Assembly (NCBI RefSeq): GCF_000253115.1
Contig: NC_014145.1
Coordinates: 868,001-932,000 of the forward strand
Length of the DNA: 64,000 nucleotides
Direction of reading: 5' to 3'
Source: Thiomonas arsenitoxydans
Lineage (GTDB): Bacteria > Pseudomonadota > Gammaproteobacteria > Burkholderiales > Burkholderiaceae_C
Shown here: positions 56,979 to 64,000 of the stretch, piece after piece
Layout: every line of letters begins with the position of its first letter
Numbering within the stretch: the first letter of the stretch is position 1
Notes under the pieces: model-generated
What the model saw: only the letters and a program-made list of their open reading frames with translations
Database searches by the model: none
Told to the model about the DNA's origin: nothing
Translations under genes and position numbers: made by a program

Positions 56979-58420
56979 TGAAACAAAAAATTAATATTCC
57001 AGATTCGTCTTCAGTTTCCGACCAGTTTGCCGGCATTTTCGTTGATGGAATTAATGCAACCAGGTTTCGAGACGCAAACGGGCAGTTAGCAGCCCAAGAT
57101 GCTTCTTTCTTGAAATCTATCGCGGAGATGGCCAAGGTCCGCGACTTCATTGGCGCCCCCGAACACATTTTAGGTCGAGATAACACCAAACACGGCGAGA
57201 TTGCCGAGCAAGTCGAGGTGGCCGTGAGGCGCGCTCGAGATGTTTTGGGGGGTATGGAACCCACGGCGACGTTCGATGGAGTTGGCAGAACGGCACCTAT
57301 GGATTACCGGGTTGGAGGCATTGACGTCCAGTCCAAATTCATTAATGGAAGCAATAACACCTTGAGCCATGTGATTGACCATATGGACCGTTATACGAAC
57401 TTCGGTCGAGATGGCTCCATCTATCAAATCCAGAAGGAACAAATTGACCAAATTAATTCGGTTCTAAATGGCAATACTGGCGACTTAAGTGCAAAAACAG
57501 TCCAAGCAATCCGCGATAAAGTGCAACACATCGAACAATTATCCGGTAAGTCGTTTGATGAAGTCGTTAGACCTTCGGTATCCGACTATTCGGAGGTGCA
57601 GGTCGGTAAAATAAATCAGACAATTGACCGACACGAGAGCGACCTTCGCGGGCAAAACGAAACACTGAAGAATCAGATTCAGGCTAGGCATCAACCATCA
57701 GTCGCCGAAGGCTTCAAGGCCGCAGGTAGCGCTGCTGCTGTAGGAGCAGCTGTAGGCTTTACAGCGAAGGCATGGGTCAAGTATCGGGAGGGAAAGAATA
57801 TCTTCAAGGGCGATTTTACTGCGGAAGACTGGGAAGAGGTCGGTGGCGCAGCGCTCAAAGGAGGCGTCGGTGGGGCTATCGCAGGTGGTGCTATTTATGT
57901 CTTGACGAATAGTGCGGAGCTGTCAGCTCCTTTCGCCGGCGCATTTGTGTCAGCAGCAAAGGGGGTCGCATCGCTGGTGTCCGATTACCATGCGGGCAAG
58001 ATTTCGATGGGAACGCTTATTGATAATGGCCTATTTGTTTGTAGCGATGCGGCTCTCGTCGGTATTTGCACGGCAGCGGGACAAACGTTAATCCCAATTC
58101 CTGTGATTGGGGCAGTAATAGGGTCGTTTGCTGGTAAGCTTTTATCGCTTTTTCTTGGAAGCAGAGTGCAAGCAGCTCAGAAGCGTCTGAATGTTGAGTT
58201 GCAGCAGTTTCGTAAGGCAGTCGGAACAAAGTATCAATCTCTGTTGGAAGAAATGGATGCCAAGTTCCAACAACTGGGCGATTTGACCAATGTTGCGTTC
58301 GATGTCCGGCTCAATGAAAACCTTCTGGCCAACAGCGTGGCGCTGGCACGCGCGTATGGGGTCCCAGACGAACGGCTTCTTCACTGCGAAGGTGAGCTGG
58401 ACAAATTCATGTGCGGTTAG
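56978..58420 (+). CDS. Unknown protein with membrane segments, second gene of a coupled pair
   Basis: A 480-aa protein starting at GTG 56978 inside TAGTG, so translation is coupled to the first gene. The N-terminal about 150 residues look like a soluble domain with FDGVGRTAPMDYRVGGIDVQ then SKFINGSNNTLSHVIDHMDR, a basic/polar pattern that might be enzymatic; no known catalytic motif is certain. A helical linker (residues about 150-240) leads to hydrophobic Gly/Ala segments (AAAVGAAVGFTAKAWV, GGVGGAIAGGAIYVL, IPIPVIGAVIGSFAGKLLS) and a helical C-terminus. Together with the first gene it looks like a membrane-targeted two-component module of unknown role. Confidence 0.78.
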   Translation: MKQKINIPDSSSVSDQFAGIFVDGINATRFRDANGQLAAQDASFLKSIAEMAKVRDFIGAPEHILGRDNTKHGEIAEQVEVAVRRARDVLGGMEPTATFDGVGRTAPMDYRVGGIDVQSKFINGSNNTLSHVIDHMDRYTNFGRDGSIYQIQKEQIDQINSVLNGNTGDLSAKTVQAIRDKVQHIEQLSGKSFDEVVRPSVSDYSEVQVGKINQTIDRHESDLRGQNETLKNQIQARHQPSVAEGFKAAGSAAAVGAAVGFTAKAWVKYREGKNIFKGDFTAEDWEEVGGAALKGGVGGAIAGGAIYVLTNSAELSAPFAGAFVSAAKGVASLVSDYHAGKISMGTLIDNGLFVCSDAALVGICTAAGQTLIPIPVIGAVIGSFAGKLLSLFLGSRVQAAQKRLNVELQQFRKAVGTKYQSLLEEMDAKFQQLGDLTNVAFDVRLNENLLANSVALARAYGVPDERLLHCEGELDKFMCG

Positions 58421-58472
58421 GTGCCAAGTGGGCAGGTGTTGGTGGGCTGCTTTGCCATCGGCTTGCTGCAAG

Positions 58473-59102
58473 CTAATGGCCCCGCCGCTTGACGTACCCA
58501 CTTTCCTGTAACGCGCGCAACAGCGAGCCGTCGGTGTCCCCCTGGACTGAATCCAAAAGCTGGGACCAAAGCTTGTATGTGCGGGTGGTGCGGACGCCTT
58601 CTGCGGGCGCTTTGCCGTAATGACCGGCGGCCACGGATTGGGCGGCAGTACGGATGCCGGTGAGTGCCTCCGCCAGCGGGTCGGCGGACTCGGTGGTTAC
58701 GGCGGTTACGGCCGAGCCCTTCGCATGCAGTCCCCCCACCACCTGCTGCAGCTGTTCAACAAGGGCGGCCGGGACGGGTTGCCCAGCACTGCGGTCAGCC
58801 GCTTCACCCAGCAACCGTAACGCCTCTTCAATCCGCCACGCAGGGTCCATCTCACGTTGCTCTGCCGCACGATTTTCCTCCGAGGCTCGCTGCCGGGCTG
58901 GGGTGCAGACTTTGGATTCAACAAAGGCGAGTTCGGCGGGCGAAAGCTTTGATTGCAGGTTGGGCGAGATGGCGGCGGCAGTGAGGGGGATGCTGCCCAC
59001 GTATCGCTGGTGCGTGTAGCCGTGGGTGTTGCCGGCGGTGCCCTTGGGGACCCAGGCTGAGCGGTAGAGCAGGGCACGGTTACGGCGGGTTTTGATGTGC
59101 AT
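58473..59102 (-). CDS. Unknown conserved island protein (209 aa)
   Basis: A 209-aa basic N-terminus (HIKTRRNRALLYRSAWVPKG) protein followed by KLSPAELAFVESKVCTPARQ, an Ala/Glu-rich middle and a C-terminal domain RTYKLWSQLLDSVQGDTDGS then LLRALQESGYVKRRG. The last domain recurs alone at 55,647-55,778. I have seen related proteins only as hypotheticals in mobile elements. It converges on the two-gene membrane cassette, 52 bases from its stop. No signal peptide. Confidence 0.72.
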   Translation of the reverse strand: MHIKTRRNRALLYRSAWVPKGTAGNTHGYTHQRYVGSIPLTAAAISPNLQSKLSPAELAFVESKVCTPARQRASEENRAAEQREMDPAWRIEEALRLLGEAADRSAGQPVPAALVEQLQQVVGGLHAKGSAVTAVTTESADPLAEALTGIRTAAQSVAAGHYGKAPAEGVRTTRTYKLWSQLLDSVQGDTDGSLLRALQESGYVKRRGH

Positions 59103-59241
59103 GTTGCTGACTCCGGTGCTGTTGTGTGCATCGTGTAGTCACCACTGTTGGAAAGGAAGCGTCACCCCACAAACGCGGCGCGCTTGAGCGAGCCGTCAAA
59201 GATGACCTGCTATCGGCTTCTGGCTAGTCGTTCAGGCTCAA

Positions 59242-60159
59242 CTAAACGCTGTCGGTGGCAATGCTCGCCTGTCCGTTGGCCTCTGGAGTAGCCGCAGGGA
59301 GATAGTCCCACGGGAGGTCTTCGTAGAAGCCTTGGACTCGCGCGTAGGCTTCTTCGAATGGCGGTAGCTCGCCTTCGACTTCTGGGGCAAGGTCTTCGTA
59401 TCCCTCACTGGCCATCCTCTTGATTTCAGGATTGGCAAACGAGCCTCTATTGGGCTCAATTCCGCGTTCGCGGCACGAGGTTGCCAGCAGTTCAAGTAGC
59501 CCCTTCTTATCTTCTGCCGTGAACGCGGCCCCGGAGGCTAGCAGGAGGTTTAGGTCGTAAACGTCTTGGCGCCTGTTTCTGTTTCGAATTGGTTGCTGCA
59601 GTAGAGAGCGCATTTTCTCTGCGAGCAGGTTCTCGAAGCTATAGACCTGAAGCCCGTCTACATCGCCAAGGCCCAAAAGCTCAACGTCGTAGACAGCCTC
59701 GTTGTAGCTGTAGTCAATCTGCACGACAGTGGTGGCCTGTCCGCTGTTGAGCCTCGCGACGGCTGCGATTTTGCTTCTCTGCGCGTATCCGATGCTCACC
59801 GAGAGTGTGGGGAACTTTGCATCAGGCCGACGCGGGTTGATTACGGCTCGCTGTCGCCTACACATGGTGTCATAGGGTAACTGGTCGTTCGCTAGCGCAA
59901 GCTGCTGGTCGAGTTCCTCTAACAACTCCTTTTCGGAGTTCTTGGCGTACTTTTCGCGTGTGGAGAAGTCCGCATCCTTTGTGAATCGGCTGCTGTCGTA
60001 TCTGATGGCCATCAGCATTCCCCCCTTCATGACCATCGTCGACCGAAGTGCGAGGGAGGTGCTAATTGCGTGGAGAACGATATGGACAGCTTCTCGGAAG
60101 CTGGCTTTCCCTAGGGGGGCCTTTTTGACCCATTCCGGGAGGTCGAGTTCTTCAAGCAT
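59242..60159 (-). CDS. abiEii: AbiEii-type nucleotidyltransferase toxin
   Basis: A 305-aa member of the AbiEii/AbiGii family (MenA/AbiEii nucleotidyltransferases). The nucleotide-binding motif appears as VMKGGMLMAIRYDSSRFTKDADFSTR, that is KGG...R.TKDxD, the family active site, and SFENLLAEKMRSLLQQP with RRQDVYDLNLLL is the downstream conserved region. Such toxins modify tRNA 3' ends or other acceptors with nucleotides and give phage resistance. It overlaps the abiEi gene by 8 bases. Confidence 0.88.
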   Translation of the reverse strand: MLEELDLPEWVKKAPLGKASFREAVHIVLHAISTSLALRSTMVMKGGMLMAIRYDSSRFTKDADFSTREKYAKNSEKELLEELDQQLALANDQLPYDTMCRRQRAVINPRRPDAKFPTLSVSIGYAQRSKIAAVARLNSGQATTVVQIDYSYNEAVYDVELLGLGDVDGLQVYSFENLLAEKMRSLLQQPIRNRNRRQDVYDLNLLLASGAAFTAEDKKGLLELLATSCRERGIEPNRGSFANPEIKRMASEGYEDLAPEVEGELPPFEEAYARVQGFYEDLPWDYLPAATPEANGQASIATDSV

Positions 60160-61081
60160 CGTCGAATTCCTGCTCTGGAGAGCTAAGTGACGGCACGTTT
60201 ATGGATAGCTTCCACGTCTCGGAGTAGTTCGAGACGTACTCGCCGTCGGGGTCCAGCTTTCGAGAGCCACCGCGCTGCGCATAGGTTTGCCACTCGCTTG
60301 CTGCGTCGAACTGCAGGTGACACACCTCCGTCAGCACGTAGCCAGCGCGAACCTTGTCGATGGACTGACCGTGGCGGCTCACTTCGTCCACGATGAGCTT
60401 TAGGTTGCGCTTTGCTTCGCGTCGATAAACGTCAATGACGTGTTGCATACCGCCGCACGACTTGGGTTCGCGCAGCATGTCGAGGAAGACGCGACCAATC
60501 GTTGCGACTCTTAGAGGCGAGCCAGCGACGTTCCGAAATGCTCCAAACTGGCTCCGCTCATGAACATGGATAGTTGTTCCTAAGAGGTTGCTCAGAGCCG
60601 GGAGCGTTAGTCGAGGGAGGCCAGACTGCTTATACGCCACCAAGTCCTCTGCAAGGTCTCTTGCCATGCGCGCCTTGGCTTGCTTGCGCCATTCGATTGC
60701 CGGAGGCCTGGTTAGATAGAGGATTTTTGGGAACCTGTCGGTGAGGCCGTGGTGCTCCATGGCGCTCAGATGCGACACATACGCGAACGGGTCGAGGCAG
60801 CATGCAATCTCCGCGGGACTTGCCGCGGAGTGACCGAAGAGCAGATAGGCGCTGCGGGCGCCGCTTATCTTGACCAACAGCCGGACGGCGAGGAGCGCAT
60901 CCATGACCCGCTCGTACTCCCTCTTAGACGCCTCGATTTCCAGAGACTTGCCCTTCAAATAGACCAGCTTGCCGAGTTCGTAAGCGGTAATGGCCGGTCC
61001 GGTGGACGCGCTTAGGCTTTCCGCGACGAGAGGGAGAAGGTCAGTGTGCGCTGGGACTGCTAGGTTTTTTGGATTCGTCAT
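60152..61081 (-). CDS. abiEi: AbiEi-like antitoxin with winged-helix regulator domain
   Basis: A 309-aa partner of the nucleotidyltransferase. It has an N-terminal part with AITAYELGKLVYLKGKS (winged-helix-like), a conserved middle (CCLDPFAYVSHLSAMEHHGLTD) found in AbiEi antitoxins, and the C-terminal antitoxin domain (GSPLRVATIGRVFLDMLREP). AbiEi proteins of the family bind inverted repeats in their own promoter. The ATG at 61079-61081 directly touches the first of three large palindromes, leaving no room for a normal ribosome-binding site, so translation is either leaderless or controlled by hairpin opening. Confidence 0.85.
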   Translation of the reverse strand: MTNPKNLAVPAHTDLLPLVAESLSASTGPAITAYELGKLVYLKGKSLEIEASKREYERVMDALLAVRLLVKISGARSAYLLFGHSAASPAEIACCLDPFAYVSHLSAMEHHGLTDRFPKILYLTRPPAIEWRKQAKARMARDLAEDLVAYKQSGLPRLTLPALSNLLGTTIHVHERSQFGAFRNVAGSPLRVATIGRVFLDMLREPKSCGGMQHVIDVYRREAKRNLKLIVDEVSRHGQSIDKVRAGYVLTEVCHLQFDAASEWQTYAQRGGSRKLDPDGEYVSNYSETWKLSINVPSLSSPEQEFDDA

Positions 61082-61123
61082 AGCGCCGTACGCTGTGTCC
61101 TGAGGACACAGCGTACGGCGCTA
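61081..61123. repeat. Long perfect palindrome P1 at the abiEi start
   Basis: Twenty-base arms, perfectly complementary, around a 3-base centre TGA. The core is TGTGTCC-TGA-GGACACA. The outermost base is the first base of the abiEi start codon on the minus strand. Confidence 0.92.
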
Positions 61124-61141
61124 TGCTTGAAAAATCAAGCA
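61124..61141. repeat. Short palindrome between P1 and P3
   Basis: TGCTTGA and TCAAGCA surround AAAA. It lies directly next to P1. On the minus strand the loop gives TTTT, so it may also act as part of a promoter or small terminator. Confidence 0.7.
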
Positions 61142-61163
61142 TCCGCGCAGCAGTTCTATACGT

Positions 61164-61208
61164 CCAGCTGCTACACTTGCGTCCTCAGGACGCAAGTGTA
61201 GCAGCTGG
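61164..61208. repeat. Long perfect palindrome P2
   Basis: Twenty-one-base arms around TCA. The core is TTGCGTCC-TCA-GGACGCAA. The outer arms are unrelated in sequence to those of the palindromes on either side, yet perfectly self-complementary. Confidence 0.92.
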
Positions 61209-61267
61209 AGCTACCGTAGCCTAGTCCTCCAGACGATTTGCATCGGAGACGGGCTTTGACTTCTTCG

Positions 61268-61316
61268 CAGTACGGCCTTACACTGCGTCCTTAGGACGCA
61301 GTGTAAGGCCGTACTG
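61268..61316. repeat. Long perfect palindrome P3
   Basis: Twenty-three-base arms around TTA. The core is CTGCGTCC-TTA-GGACGCAG. It is the most distal from abiEi. The three large palindromes are spaced about 84 and 106 bases centre to centre. Confidence 0.92.
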
Positions 61317-61593
61317 ATTGACTTCAATCTGCCCCTTCTAACCAACGCGGCCTAAGCGGTGGATGGGCTAGCTGTCGCAGCAGCTCACAGTGCGTCCGGG
61401 CATGCGACTCGCGCTTGCCTTCGCTCTGCTCTCACCTATCCAGTTGACTGCCGACCTGGATACACCTTAGTTTGCCTCGACTATCCTGCAGCGTGTTCCT
61501 GGTTGAGCCTTTCCAGCAGCCTAGTGACCGCGACACCAAGAGTTGTTGGGAACGTCGAAAGCGCTACGCGCAGATAGTCACCTAGTCTAGTCA

Positions 61594-62223
61594 TCAGACT
61601 TGATGGGCGTCTTCCGCGGCGACGGCATGCCAAGCGGCGCTGCTGAAGCCGGCACTCGGATGCAACATGCGAACCGCCAGCACGCGCCTCACGGGTTGAC
61701 TCATCCTCGGCTGCGGAGCCAAGTCGTACCAGCACGACAGTGCTCTTACGTTCTTTTGAATCGTCGGGCCAGCTGTTGCCTCTTCAGGCAACCAGTTCCA
61801 AAGCGTGTACCCGAGGACCCACACCACGTCGGGTCGAAGGACTTCAAGCGTTGCGAGGAAGGGTTCCTTGGCCGCTTCAATCATTTCAGATTTCGGTCCG
61901 ACACGGGGGCCGTGGCCAACCGATTCCTGAATGAAATTGGCGTACGCGACAGAGTCCCAGAAGCGTCGCTTTTCGTCCAGCGTCGGCGCGTGCCCGATGG
62001 CAACCATCGCAATCTTTGTCCAGTGCGCCACACTGTCTTCACCTGAACGCTGCTCCTCAATGCATTGCCGCGTGAGGTCAGCGGTCACGGGCACGTCCGA
62101 ATCCCACTGGTAGTGAGATTGCCCAAGGATGAGGGTGCGACGCCCCCAAAGACCCTCTTCAAAAGCCCCGCCAACCCATGGCTGAAAATACACGGACGCA
62201 GGGAATTCGGGATACGTTCCCAT
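61594..62223 (-). CDS. Uracil-DNA-glycosylase-fold-like protein of unknown role
   Basis: A 209-aa protein from the ATG at 62223, which follows TATGGAGGCGTCTCG. The frame is open upstream to 62469, but that part is Arg-rich and looks non-coding. RRTLILGQSHYQWD followed by QCIEEQRSG, HWTKIAMVAIG, a RPDVVWVLGYTLWNWLP strand and a C-terminal VRMLHPSAGFSSAAWH match a UDG-superfamily-like outline, in which an N-terminal GxS/GxD loop and a C-terminal H-P loop form the active site. Specificity is unclear. The 277 bases between P3 and this gene show nothing. Confidence 0.6.
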   Translation of the reverse strand: MGTYPEFPASVYFQPWVGGAFEEGLWGRRTLILGQSHYQWDSDVPVTADLTRQCIEEQRSGEDSVAHWTKIAMVAIGHAPTLDEKRRFWDSVAYANFIQESVGHGPRVGPKSEMIEAAKEPFLATLEVLRPDVVWVLGYTLWNWLPEEATAGPTIQKNVRALSCWYDLAPQPRMSQPVRRVLAVRMLHPSAGFSSAAWHAVAAEDAHQV

Positions 62224-62526
62224 CGAGACGCCTCCATAGTCAAACTCGCCGATTCCGCAGCGAGACGTCAGCTTAGCGTTCTGCAACTCTGACATGGAAT
62301 CCGTGTAGAGGTCGCACAGATGGTGCCCGTCGCAAGCCACCAGTTCCGCGTCGCGGATGCACGGGGTGCGACTGATTGAGGCCCTTCGAGGGTTGGTGCG
62401 GGCGCTATCGGCGACTGGTCCAGAGCCAGAACGTCCGGGCTGACGCGCTTCAAGCCATGCCCGCATCACGCGCCCTCTTCCCGGCGCCGTCTGGTGTGCC
62501 TACACTCAAAGCCACTGGAGCACGCA
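62224..62526. other. Upstream region of the UDG-like gene
   Basis: About 300 bases with no supported gene. An extension of the leftward frame through here is possible, but its composition does not favour it. Confidence 0.4.
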
Positions 62527-62709
62527 ATGACCTCGTATGACCGCAAGAACGACGTCATCGACCTGCTCGCAATGAAGTAGGCCAGCGTGGCACGCATGCT
62601 CGCGACGGCCAAGGCGCTCCACGACAGGAGCGAGCTGCGGCCTATGCCAATCCCTGCTCACGTCGCGCTACCTACTGCGGAACCTCTTCGAGTGAGGACT
62701 AAGAAGTGA
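62527..62709 (+). pseudogene. Small ORF broken by an in-frame TAG
   Basis: Starts MTSYDRKNDVIDLLAMK, hits TAG at 62,578-62,580, and continues in the same frame with ASVARMLATAKALHDRSELR and PMPIPAHVALPTAEPLRVRT, ending at TGA 62,707-62,709. The stop overlaps the GTG start of the next ORF (GTGA). The length without the stop would be 60 aa. It could be a decayed small gene or one read through. Confidence 0.45.
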
Positions 62710-62906
62710 GCGGATTGACCGAATGCGACCAGGATAGCCCCGGCGTCGCGGAGACCATTCGGGCGATGTCGGCAGACGAGGTGCGCAAGCTTCTCGAAGA
62801 AGCGCGTGCGTCGGAGCTGCGCCGAACGCTGGAGGATGTGCAGGCAGTTGTCGCCGCTTGGCACGAGTTCGGTAGCCATCCGACTCCTTCGAAGGCTACG
62901 GGGTAG
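62706..62906 (+). CDS. Small acidic-helical protein, coupled to the preceding ORF
   Basis: A 66-aa frame from GTG, overlapping the previous stop by GTGA. The protein (SGLTECDQDSPGVAETIRAM, then SADEVRKLLEEARASELRRT) has amphipathic helices typical of small regulatory proteins. No family is recognised. Confidence 0.45.
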   Translation: MSGLTECDQDSPGVAETIRAMSADEVRKLLEEARASELRRTLEDVQAVVAAWHEFGSHPTPSKATG

Positions 62907-63300
62907 CGCTCCCTGTGCATCGCTGAGATGCCGACGGTTACACCGCCGCGGGCACCACGGGAACACGTCCCCTGGCATCACCGTGACCACGGTGGCTGGC
63001 AACTGGCGGCACTCTCACCATCGACACGGACATCATCGAGTGCGCCTGGCCCGATGGCACCACAGGCCATCACCTCGACGGACCCGCGGGCGGACGGCGC
63101 TGCGTCCAGCAGCGTCCATCGATGAAACTGTTGCTGCGAGTAGGGGTCACGCTACACCCAGTCGGTACGTCAGTGAGGAGGCATCTGCCGCGACCGGGCA
63201 CGGCAAGGCGGTGCGAACCGCCGCCGGCCCAGCGCAGCATGCCCTCGTGCGAACAGCTCGGCGCGACCAGCGCCGAGACACTGCAGCGCGGGTCCCGCGA

Positions 63301-63314
63301 TTTCATCGATGAAA
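63301..63314. repeat. Palindromic site, copy 1
   Basis: TTTCATCGATGAAA, a perfect 14-bp palindrome, followed by CT. A partial form (CATCGATGAAA) lies at about 63,117-63,127. Confidence 0.7.
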
Positions 63315-63346
63315 CTCCGCGCCTGAGCCCGCCCTCGCCGGACGAA

Positions 63347-63360
63347 TTTCATCGATGAAA
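63347..63360. repeat. Palindromic site, copy 2
   Basis: A second exact TTTCATCGATGAAA, 46 bases after the first, again followed by CT. Identity over 16 bases and even spacing suggest binding sites for one protein. Confidence 0.7.
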
Positions 63361-63773
63361 CTGGGGCGACCAGGCGCTCGGCAGCACGGCTGCATGAAAC
63401 CGTGGGCAAGCTGCGACAGCACGGCTGCTGGCAGAACAGTTGGAGCCGACGTCGATAGCACAGTGGCCTTGCAAGTACATCCGGGACGGCGGCGGTTCGC
63501 ACCGGCGCAGCCGGGCGACGGAACAGCCGACCTTGAGAGACGTCGCGACGAAAACGTGAGCGACGCGCGCCCCTGGCGCGCGAGGTTGCCCGCTGGGGAA
63601 AAACCTCCTGCCCCCTGCCAGCGGGCGACCGCTCGGTCAGCCCCTTGAGTCACCCAGATTAAGAACGCGGCGGCGTGGTGCGCAGGACGCTGAGCCTCGG
63701 TTGCGCGGTCGTTGCTATACGCAATAAGCCCCGCCGCATCGCAGGAAGTCTGGTCGATGGGCGGCCCCGAAAA

Positions 63774-63789
63774 CTTTCAGCGCTGAAAG
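63774..63789. promoter_or_regulatory. Related palindrome before the last gene
   Basis: CTTTCAGCGCTGAAAG is a perfect 16-bp palindrome with the same TTTCA...TGAAA frame as the two sites upstream but with GCGC in the middle. It lies eight bases before the ATG at 63,797, where a repressor could block expression. Confidence 0.55.
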
Positions 63790-63796
63790 ACCGCCT

Positions 63797-64000
63797 ATGT
63801 CGAAACCCAACACCTCCGCAAAGACAGATGCCACAGCCGACTGTGCTCCCGTGTCATCGCCGCCGGTCACACGTCACACCACCGCCGACATCACTGCGGC
63901 AGATGGTGTCATCAACCCTGCGAGCACTCGTAACGGTGTCACTGTCGTGCCCTCCACGAGCGGCTCCGTAACACCCGCCACGGTTACCGGAGCCACCAAG
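63797..64000 (+). CDS. Partial gene running off the window, Thr/Ser/Ala-rich N-terminus
   Basis: Open from ATG 63797 to the last base, 68 codons: SKPNTSAKTDATADCAPVSS, then PPVTRHTTADITAADGV and a Thr/Val-rich stretch (NGVTVVPSTSGSVTPATVTG). No signal peptide or known domain is seen; this looks like a disordered N-terminal tail. The palindrome just upstream may be its operator. Function cannot be judged from this part. Confidence 0.5.
   Translation, partial: MSKPNTSAKTDATADCAPVSSPPVTRHTTADITAADGVINPASTRNGVTVVPSTSGSVTPATVTGATK

Follow-up and report, generated by a model that had tools for sequence, protein, structure and literature searches.

The window, which is the whole stretch of 64,000 nucleotides that was analysed, contains two adjacent genes on the minus strand:

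59242..60159, minus strand: abiEii, nucleotidyltransferase toxin, 305 aa, overlapping abiEi by 8 bp
60152..61081, minus strand: abiEi, antitoxin and regulator, 309 aa

The two genes are a type IV toxin-antitoxin pair (AbiE), which serves in phage defence. Their adjacency, common strand and 8-bp overlap agree with the AbiE definition, as do the fold of AbiEi with its N-terminal winged helix and the nucleotidyltransferase domain of AbiEii (PF08843, E 1.7e-30, 107 bits against a cut-off of 22.5). AbiEii also matches PADLOC PDLC02306, and AbiEi gave no match in sequence searches of NCBIfam and the PDB. Beside abiE, a 291-aa open reading frame (61594-62469, minus strand) had no match in Pfam, PADLOC or NCBIfam. 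The perfect 14-bp palindrome TTTCATCGATGAAA occurs at 63301-63314 and 63347-63360, 46 bp apart, and nowhere else in the genome, and its shorter relative CATCGATGAAAC lies near 63118. TTTCATCGATGAAA may be the site of a DNA-binding protein.

Three perfect palindromes, each with a conserved core, are located upstream of abiEi-abiEii:

61079..61125, no strand: P1, start-proximal perfect palindrome (inverted-repeat scan), arm of 23 bp plus one central base
61094..61110, no strand: core of P1, TGTGTCCTGAGGACACA, centre 61102, the predicted abiE transcription start
61163..61209, no strand: P2, middle perfect palindrome, arm of 23 bp plus one central base, with TACACT in the arm
61178..61194, no strand: core of P2, centre 61186
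61268..61316, no strand: P3, distal perfect palindrome (inverted-repeat scan), arm of 24 bp plus one central base
61284..61300, no strand: core of P3, centre 61292, the predicted start of a divergent transcript

The sequence-only reading had described three perfect palindromes here; they are real, and two of them are slightly longer than it noted (arms of 23, 23 and 24 bp). The next longest perfect inverted repeat in the 64-kb window (spacer ≤8) has an arm of 14. The outer arms, which had been called wholly different, are mostly so, except that TACACT, a -10-like box, is common to P2 and P3. The ATG of abiEi (61081-61079, minus strand) forms the last three bases of P1 and thus lies inside the palindrome. 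When the 3.79-Mb genome was searched, TGYGTCCTNAGGACRCA was found in three places, which are P1-P3 only, and TCCTNAGGA in eight, of which the five outside P1-P3 have palindromic arms of only 4-7 bp. A BLAST-type genome search with the palindrome region matched no second place. A genome-wide repeat was rejected because the core palindromes of this genome are confined to abiE, and a role of the arms as guides or targets was rejected because they have no further match within it.

The upstream regions of abiE homologues were then compared. An AbiEi alignment search of genome contigs gave 116 loci, of which the best 80 were kept, and the element was present in 78 of these 80; the exceptions are L053, which lacks it, and L092, whose upstream DNA is limited to 49 bp. 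Ten further plasmid loci all carry the element, and their AbiEi proteins are 27-34% identical to that of the window (one 39%, partial). The counts below refer to an 87-locus set (L004, L005, L007-L011 and L019-L098) or to a 97-locus set, in which L099-L108 are added. Omitted from the 87 were L006 (a near copy of L005), L012-L016 (apparent copies of included loci), L017 (palindrome present) and L018 (another clade). Over the 97 loci, core palindromes lie upstream of abiEi in 95, which according to the record titles belong to five phyla (Pseudomonadota, Desulfobacterota, Verrucomicrobiota, cyanobacteria and one Nitrospira). In the 87-locus set, 148 perfect sites have an arm that reaches 13 bp or more. 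Some rows are near-identical (for example L089-L091, L007/L066 and, among the added loci, L099/L103), so that the 133 distinct arms are the better measure. One site was found in 27 of these loci, two in 53 and three in 5. In all of L005-L017 (13 loci, some of them duplicates of one another), perfect palindromes centred on GTCCTNAGGAC precede abiEi, and L132-L134, outside the counts, also have core palindromes. An AbiEii-like tblastn match was present in 93/97 loci, and two of the other four (L033 and L071) extend for less than 1 kb after the start of the abiEi match. No viral contigs with such loci were found.

Several observations were made beside this comparison. The longest palindromes found (65-69 bp, core ATCCTNAGGAT) are those of the Pseudanabaena loci L050, L058 and L064. 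An Acinetobacter cumulans plasmid (L104, 979-2352) encodes an AbiEi relative within a 457-aa open reading frame with a palindrome upstream, and no AbiEii-like match lies within the 1.7 kb available. A gene for a PP2C-type phosphatase follows abiEii on an E. coli plasmid (L103, 2362-2697) and on a Providencia plasmid (L108, 2011-2320), where it is perhaps a third operon member. In other AbiEi clades (L018 and L126-L129), perfect palindromes of 24-44 bp have other, mostly even centres, and examples are AGTATATATACT and an outer TGCTRTG; the palindrome trait may thus be wider than this clade, with the same principle and another core. The AbiEi-like loci L136 and L138 have no perfect repeat with an arm of 11 or more; L130 and L137, with next to no upstream sequence, and the fragment L131 lie outside this comparison.

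The core TCCTNAGGA is invariant, and the arm sequences differ widely among loci. TCCT precedes the central base in 133/133 distinct arms, and the base next to it is G in 128 of them and A in the other 5. The central gap is 1 bp, and the arm is 18-25 bp long in 158/168 sites of the 97 loci. The pattern demanded [AG]TCCTNAGGA[CT]; only three other perfect or near-perfect repeats (arm ≥13) were found in the same stretches, two of which are the same element with a core mutation. As background, the remainder of these loci, 505 kb beyond the upstream stretches, contains 11 perfect inverted repeats with an arm of at least 14. Four long perfect inverted repeats outside the abiE upstream stretch were seen in L105, L058, L050 and L072 (arms of 24, 29, 23 and 21, respectively).

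Pairing of the arms is nearly complete. An internal mismatch, with pairing on both its sides, occurs in only 5/170 core sites (counted without L109-L116), namely in L027 and L061 (both in the core), in both L080 sites (one of them G:T) and in L082. When all TCCTNAGGA occurrences up to 450 bp upstream were taken in a census, 2346/2366 pairs at positions 5-18 were Watson-Crick. Of the 20 exceptions (5 G-T and 15 other), 11 come from L046, a lone core without arms, and the rest from L065, L068, L080 and L082. The second pair beyond the arm end is complementary in only 25/139 sites, so that the arm ends are sharp. Similar palindromes fall into 22 groups, in which no fewer than 71 alternative arm letters are matched by the partner letter on the other arm, and 53 are left when one loose group of 23, possibly non-homologous (18 letters), is removed. 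The claim that self-complementarity is kept while the sequence changes is supported by these matched letters, set against five mismatched sites, and fixed-core palindromes with changing arms are present in 95/97 loci. The proposed search for the core elsewhere in the genome likewise ended with full core palindromes at abiE only.

Two sites of one locus were compared with each other. The outer arms (positions 14-22) of distal and proximal sites show no detectable likeness (0.294 versus 0.269 expected, p=0.12, 57 loci), and arm positions 6-18 are slightly alike between the two sites (0.404 versus 0.341 expected, p=0.0005). One AbiEi should serve both sites, and it is therefore unlikely to read the outer arms base by base. 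The pattern suggests that the self-pairing ability of the DNA, and not its exact sequence, is the maintained trait, and the invariant core probably serves as a site for a protein. The sequence-only reading had proposed something more than a repressor site; this fits the arms but not the core.

The position of the palindromes relative to promoters was examined next. Non-redundant sites with arms of at least 13 bp were scored, and a -35 box was accepted with at least 4/6 agreement to TTGACA at a distance of 16-18 bp. Two promoters were predicted in the window:

61110..61138, minus strand: predicted abiE promoter, -35 TTGATT at 61138-61133, 17-bp spacer, -10 TACGCT at 61115-61110 in P1 (left side, 4/6)
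61256..61284, plus strand: predicted divergent promoter, -35 TTGACT at 61256-61261, 17-bp spacer, -10 TACACT at 61279-61284 in P3 (5/6)

The other side of P3 also scores 4/6 for a -35 box, and P2, despite TACACT in its arm, has no -35 box of 4/6 or better on either side. Among the homologues, TAnnnT ending 6-10 bp from the centre was found in 50/77 proximal, 42/58 distal and 5/5 middle sites, versus 16%, 12% and 9% in shuffled arms, respectively. When TAnnnT was present, the -35 box lay on the left in 29/50 proximal sites and on the right in 6; at distal sites it lay on the left in 9/42 and on the right in 29. Shuffled flanks gave 12-15%, and the mean scores agree with this layout. The five middle sites had a -35 box on the left of four and on the right of two. 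With the -10 box in the arm and the -35 box outside, the predicted start falls on the palindrome centre, and the predicted transcription from proximal and distal sites would point apart. The inverted repeats, present in 95/97 loci, overlap promoter-like boxes, as is expected of an AbiEi operator of the S. agalactiae type. Neighbouring centres have a median spacing of 96, and the spacings follow the helix with a best period of 10.25 bp (R 0.37, p=0.004 versus jittered spacings; 49 of 54 non-redundant spacings, the five of 140 bp or more being dropped).

The gene that might be served by the distal promoter was searched for. Of 58 leftward open reading frames, 6 exceeded the shuffled 95% limit, and the distal sites drive no recognised gene. 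The sequence left of the distal site showed no clear extra conservation, in a weak test where unrelated flanks already reach about 0.7 gapped identity. No Rfam match was found within 58000-64000 of the window. Open reading frames, flank conservation and Rfam thus gave no clear sign that the divergent promoter serves a conserved gene or RNA. The mean arm is 21.6 at distal and 21.8 at proximal sites; distal sites without a recognised gene thus have arms as long as proximal ones, and pairing is not tied to mRNA.

These results bear on two readings at the RNA level. In the first, which the sequence-only reading had put forward, the native transcript contains the palindrome and folds it into an RNA hairpin. 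The long perfect stems agree with this, as do the compensated changes and a very stable RNA fold. In contrast, the promoter layout places the predicted start at the centre, so that the native mRNA would carry one arm only. G-T pairs, which would be G-U in RNA, have no excess over other mismatches: they make up 5/20 of the census exceptions and 22/139 of the arm-ending pairs, where the chance level is 2 in 12, which the arm-ending pairs match. The missing Rfam match in 58000-64000 also speaks against it. An RNA hairpin as the main form is thus not supported and was set aside, and we consider this reading very improbable; of the proposed pair, RNA hairpins or cruciforms, the former is disfavoured and the latter is a possible form.

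In the second RNA reading, the palindrome guards against read-through: transcripts started at the centre would be translated, and incoming transcripts with two arms would fold and hide the abiEi start codon. Consistently, RNA of the full P1 region gives a fold of -44 kcal/mol in which the AUG is part of the stem, and in the fold of a transcript from the predicted central start the AUG is outside any full stem. The hairpin that guards the start codon of the IS10 transposase from read-through is a precedent, which the literature search did not return. The abiEi start is no more than 10 nt away from the end of the palindrome in 56/89 scorable proximal sites, but further off in 33/89, so that the described abutment of palindrome and start codon applies to P1, which even contains the ATG, and often but not always to relatives. 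Shine-Dalgarno enrichment was not found (24/89 loci versus 20% in shuffles). The distal sites are equally perfect yet stand before no recognised gene, and G-U pairs show no enrichment, although they would do no harm in RNA. A read-through guard is therefore rated improbable, third among the explanations.

Close relatives were used to follow how the arms change. In nine groups with identical arms, the central base differs, A/T in eight and A/G in one. The centre is A or T in 123/148 sites (83%), and the A/T flips may partly reflect this base preference. A 4.7-kb enterobacterial plasmid matches 52 PLSDB records, and its distal site is exact in the T form in 27 and in the A form in 8. Twenty records matched among E. 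coli genomes, 12 with the exact T form, 6 with the exact A form and one of each with one extra change. When ten copies were aligned, the distal centre was T in six and A in four, the proximal centre had flipped once, and two arm mutations (L109 and L111) lacked a partner change. The position altered in L111 is A-T in L099, A/C in L111 and G-C in L114; the three look like successive states, with L111 the apparent intermediate and L114 compensated. L088 and L093 have two mirrored differences in the distal arm, with an identical inter-site stretch and a 99% identical gene. In inverted repeats, template switching is described to homogenise the arms and invert the spacer (PMC8604942), and it has been argued to create and maintain perfect stems (PMC8794818), as far as the cited parts of these papers go. 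Both marks, joint arm changes and spacer inversion, were seen here between near relatives, with the base preference of the centre as a caveat. These comparisons point to concerted evolution of the arms, which is what template switching by the polymerase would produce. Since this process can preserve perfect arms even when the individual pairs are not under selection, covariation alone is no proof of a functional hairpin; the earlier step from covariation to such a hairpin is right about kept pairing and weakened in its inference.

The same observations support a duplex operator with homogenised arms. AbiEi dimers would bind the core as double-stranded DNA, the arms would be functionless and kept perfect through template-switch repair or copying, and deletion of the palindrome would cost the promoter. 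The A/T differences in 8/9 groups, the restriction to A and T in the 20 E. coli plasmid records, the series L099, L111 and L114, the mirrored changes of L088/L093 and the known homogenisation with spacer inversion (PMC8604942, cited part) all agree with this. So do the low complementarity past the arm end (25/139), as if longer matches had been absorbed, and the bound 23-bp half-site known for AbiEi from the cited parts of PMC3985639 and PMC7319586. On the other hand, such repeats are rare elsewhere in the same loci, so that homogenisation alone does not render them common, the arm length is narrow, and with a centre that is 83% A or T the flips may in part be due to base preference. We regard a duplex operator as a serious candidate of lesser probability, close behind the explanation favoured here.

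The favoured explanation, held tentatively and below even confidence, is an operator-promoter of the AbiE operon that acts at the DNA level and has cruciform potential. The palindrome would be centred on the transcription start, and the core TCCTNAGGA over the start would be read by AbiEi and RNA polymerase. The arms would be kept able to pair whatever their sequence, and the most likely use of this pairing would be cruciform extrusion under negative supercoiling, giving a pair of hairpins that carry the core at the tip. Extrusion would remove the -10 box and the start from duplex DNA and so shut the promoter, and AbiEi would favour one of the two states, duplex or cruciform. Two such sites, on about the same helix face, would flank divergent promoters, and template switching, by copying changes from arm to arm, would help to keep the arms perfect. 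Perfection, core, promoter-like layout and joint arm change are established by sequence comparison; AbiEi binding, the start sites, and cruciform formation and its effect are what we infer from it.

Folding and extrusion were also estimated. Single DNA strands fold over their full length, with a loop of three bases and an energy of about -29 kcal/mol, and by a rough estimate palindromes of 41-49 bp would extrude at sigma -0.024 to -0.044, a physiological range. The central 9 bp of the palindromes are G+C-rich, and a G+C-rich centre should slow cruciform extrusion. The DNA-level reading is favoured by L053, the sole locus with sufficient upstream DNA and no palindrome: its abiEi frame opens 13 nt after an upstream open reading frame, the abiEii similarity is apparently spread over two frames, and abiEii looks broken, as in a decaying copy. 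Against the cruciform, template switching could explain perfect arms with no cruciform function. The unpaired arm mutations in near-identical plasmids (L109, L111) also stand against it, as single mismatches are tolerated at least briefly, and the likeness at arm positions 6-18 fits some reading of sequence or common -10 letters.

A further step, which we consider unlikely, is that AbiE operons would sense DNA topology through a natural class of promoter switch, with DNA self-pairing conserved in place of sequence. The divergent promoters, one of them before no recognised gene, would pump negative supercoils into the DNA between them, both start-site palindromes would extrude with the AbiEi core at the tips, and the operon would be shut. 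Upon relaxation by a nick, a break or a phage nuclease, the duplex would return and the promoter would fire.

The element was compared with known AbiE operators, each as described in the cited part of its report. The abiE promoter of S. agalactiae is overlapped by two 23-bp repeats, 3 bp apart with 4 mismatches, which are bound by AbiEi (PMC3985639); its start was mapped 26 bp before the ATG, with a -10 box TAAAAT and the -35 box in IR1 (PMC3985639, PMC7319586). The two elements are alike in the AbiEi-AbiEii operon, in a palindrome of similar size (49 bp in S. agalactiae) that overlaps the promoter, here a predicted one, and in half-site size. As described there, the S. agalactiae halves are imperfect, with the outer 11 bp as the perfect part, whereas the present element is fully symmetric with a fixed centre. 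It also differs in its variable outer arms, its -35 box outside, its usual second divergent site and its position centred on the predicted start. The conserved outer half-sites with a 3-bp spacer of the S. agalactiae type were not found in the present element, which has an invariant centre and a 1-bp gap. Rv2827c of Mycobacterium tuberculosis binds four 23-bp repeats in its own promoter, arranged as two repeat pairs with 13-bp gaps and read by sequence with graded affinity (PMC7319586), and AbiEi of Streptococcus suis binds palindromic IR1/IR2 in its own promoter (PMC11062541). These AbiEi-family regulators likewise act on promoter repeats with several sites per promoter, but perfect variable arms are not described for either in the cited parts of these papers (PMC7319586, PMC11062541).

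Other likenesses lie outside AbiE, again within the cited parts of the sources. Template-switched inverted repeats (PMC8604942, PMC8794818) share the joint change of arms and the inversion of the spacer, but those cases are dispersed over yeast genes and RNA genes, whereas the present element is regulatory, has a fixed core and is kept near-perfect across phyla. An experimental case of a promoter regulated by a cruciform, in which palindrome extrusion would repress transcription, is that of Horwitz and Loeb 1988 (cited in PMC6060812); a palindrome at the promoter is common to both, and extrusion at AbiE is a prediction only. Among the literature matches listed, with most subscription journals and preprints outside the coverage, none describes this AbiE element. 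Searches with the core strings returned no bacterial AbiE paper by title or abstract start, and AbiEii together with cruciform gave no match.

If the favoured explanation is right, one rule, a fixed core with kept pairing and free arms, would cover AbiE promoters in several phyla. The loci would then offer a large natural set to test cruciform regulation of promoters in living cells, and also one to measure the concerted evolution of inverted repeats. If the arms are instead a mutational by-product, they would still be an unusually clear case of concerted evolution within a regulatory site.
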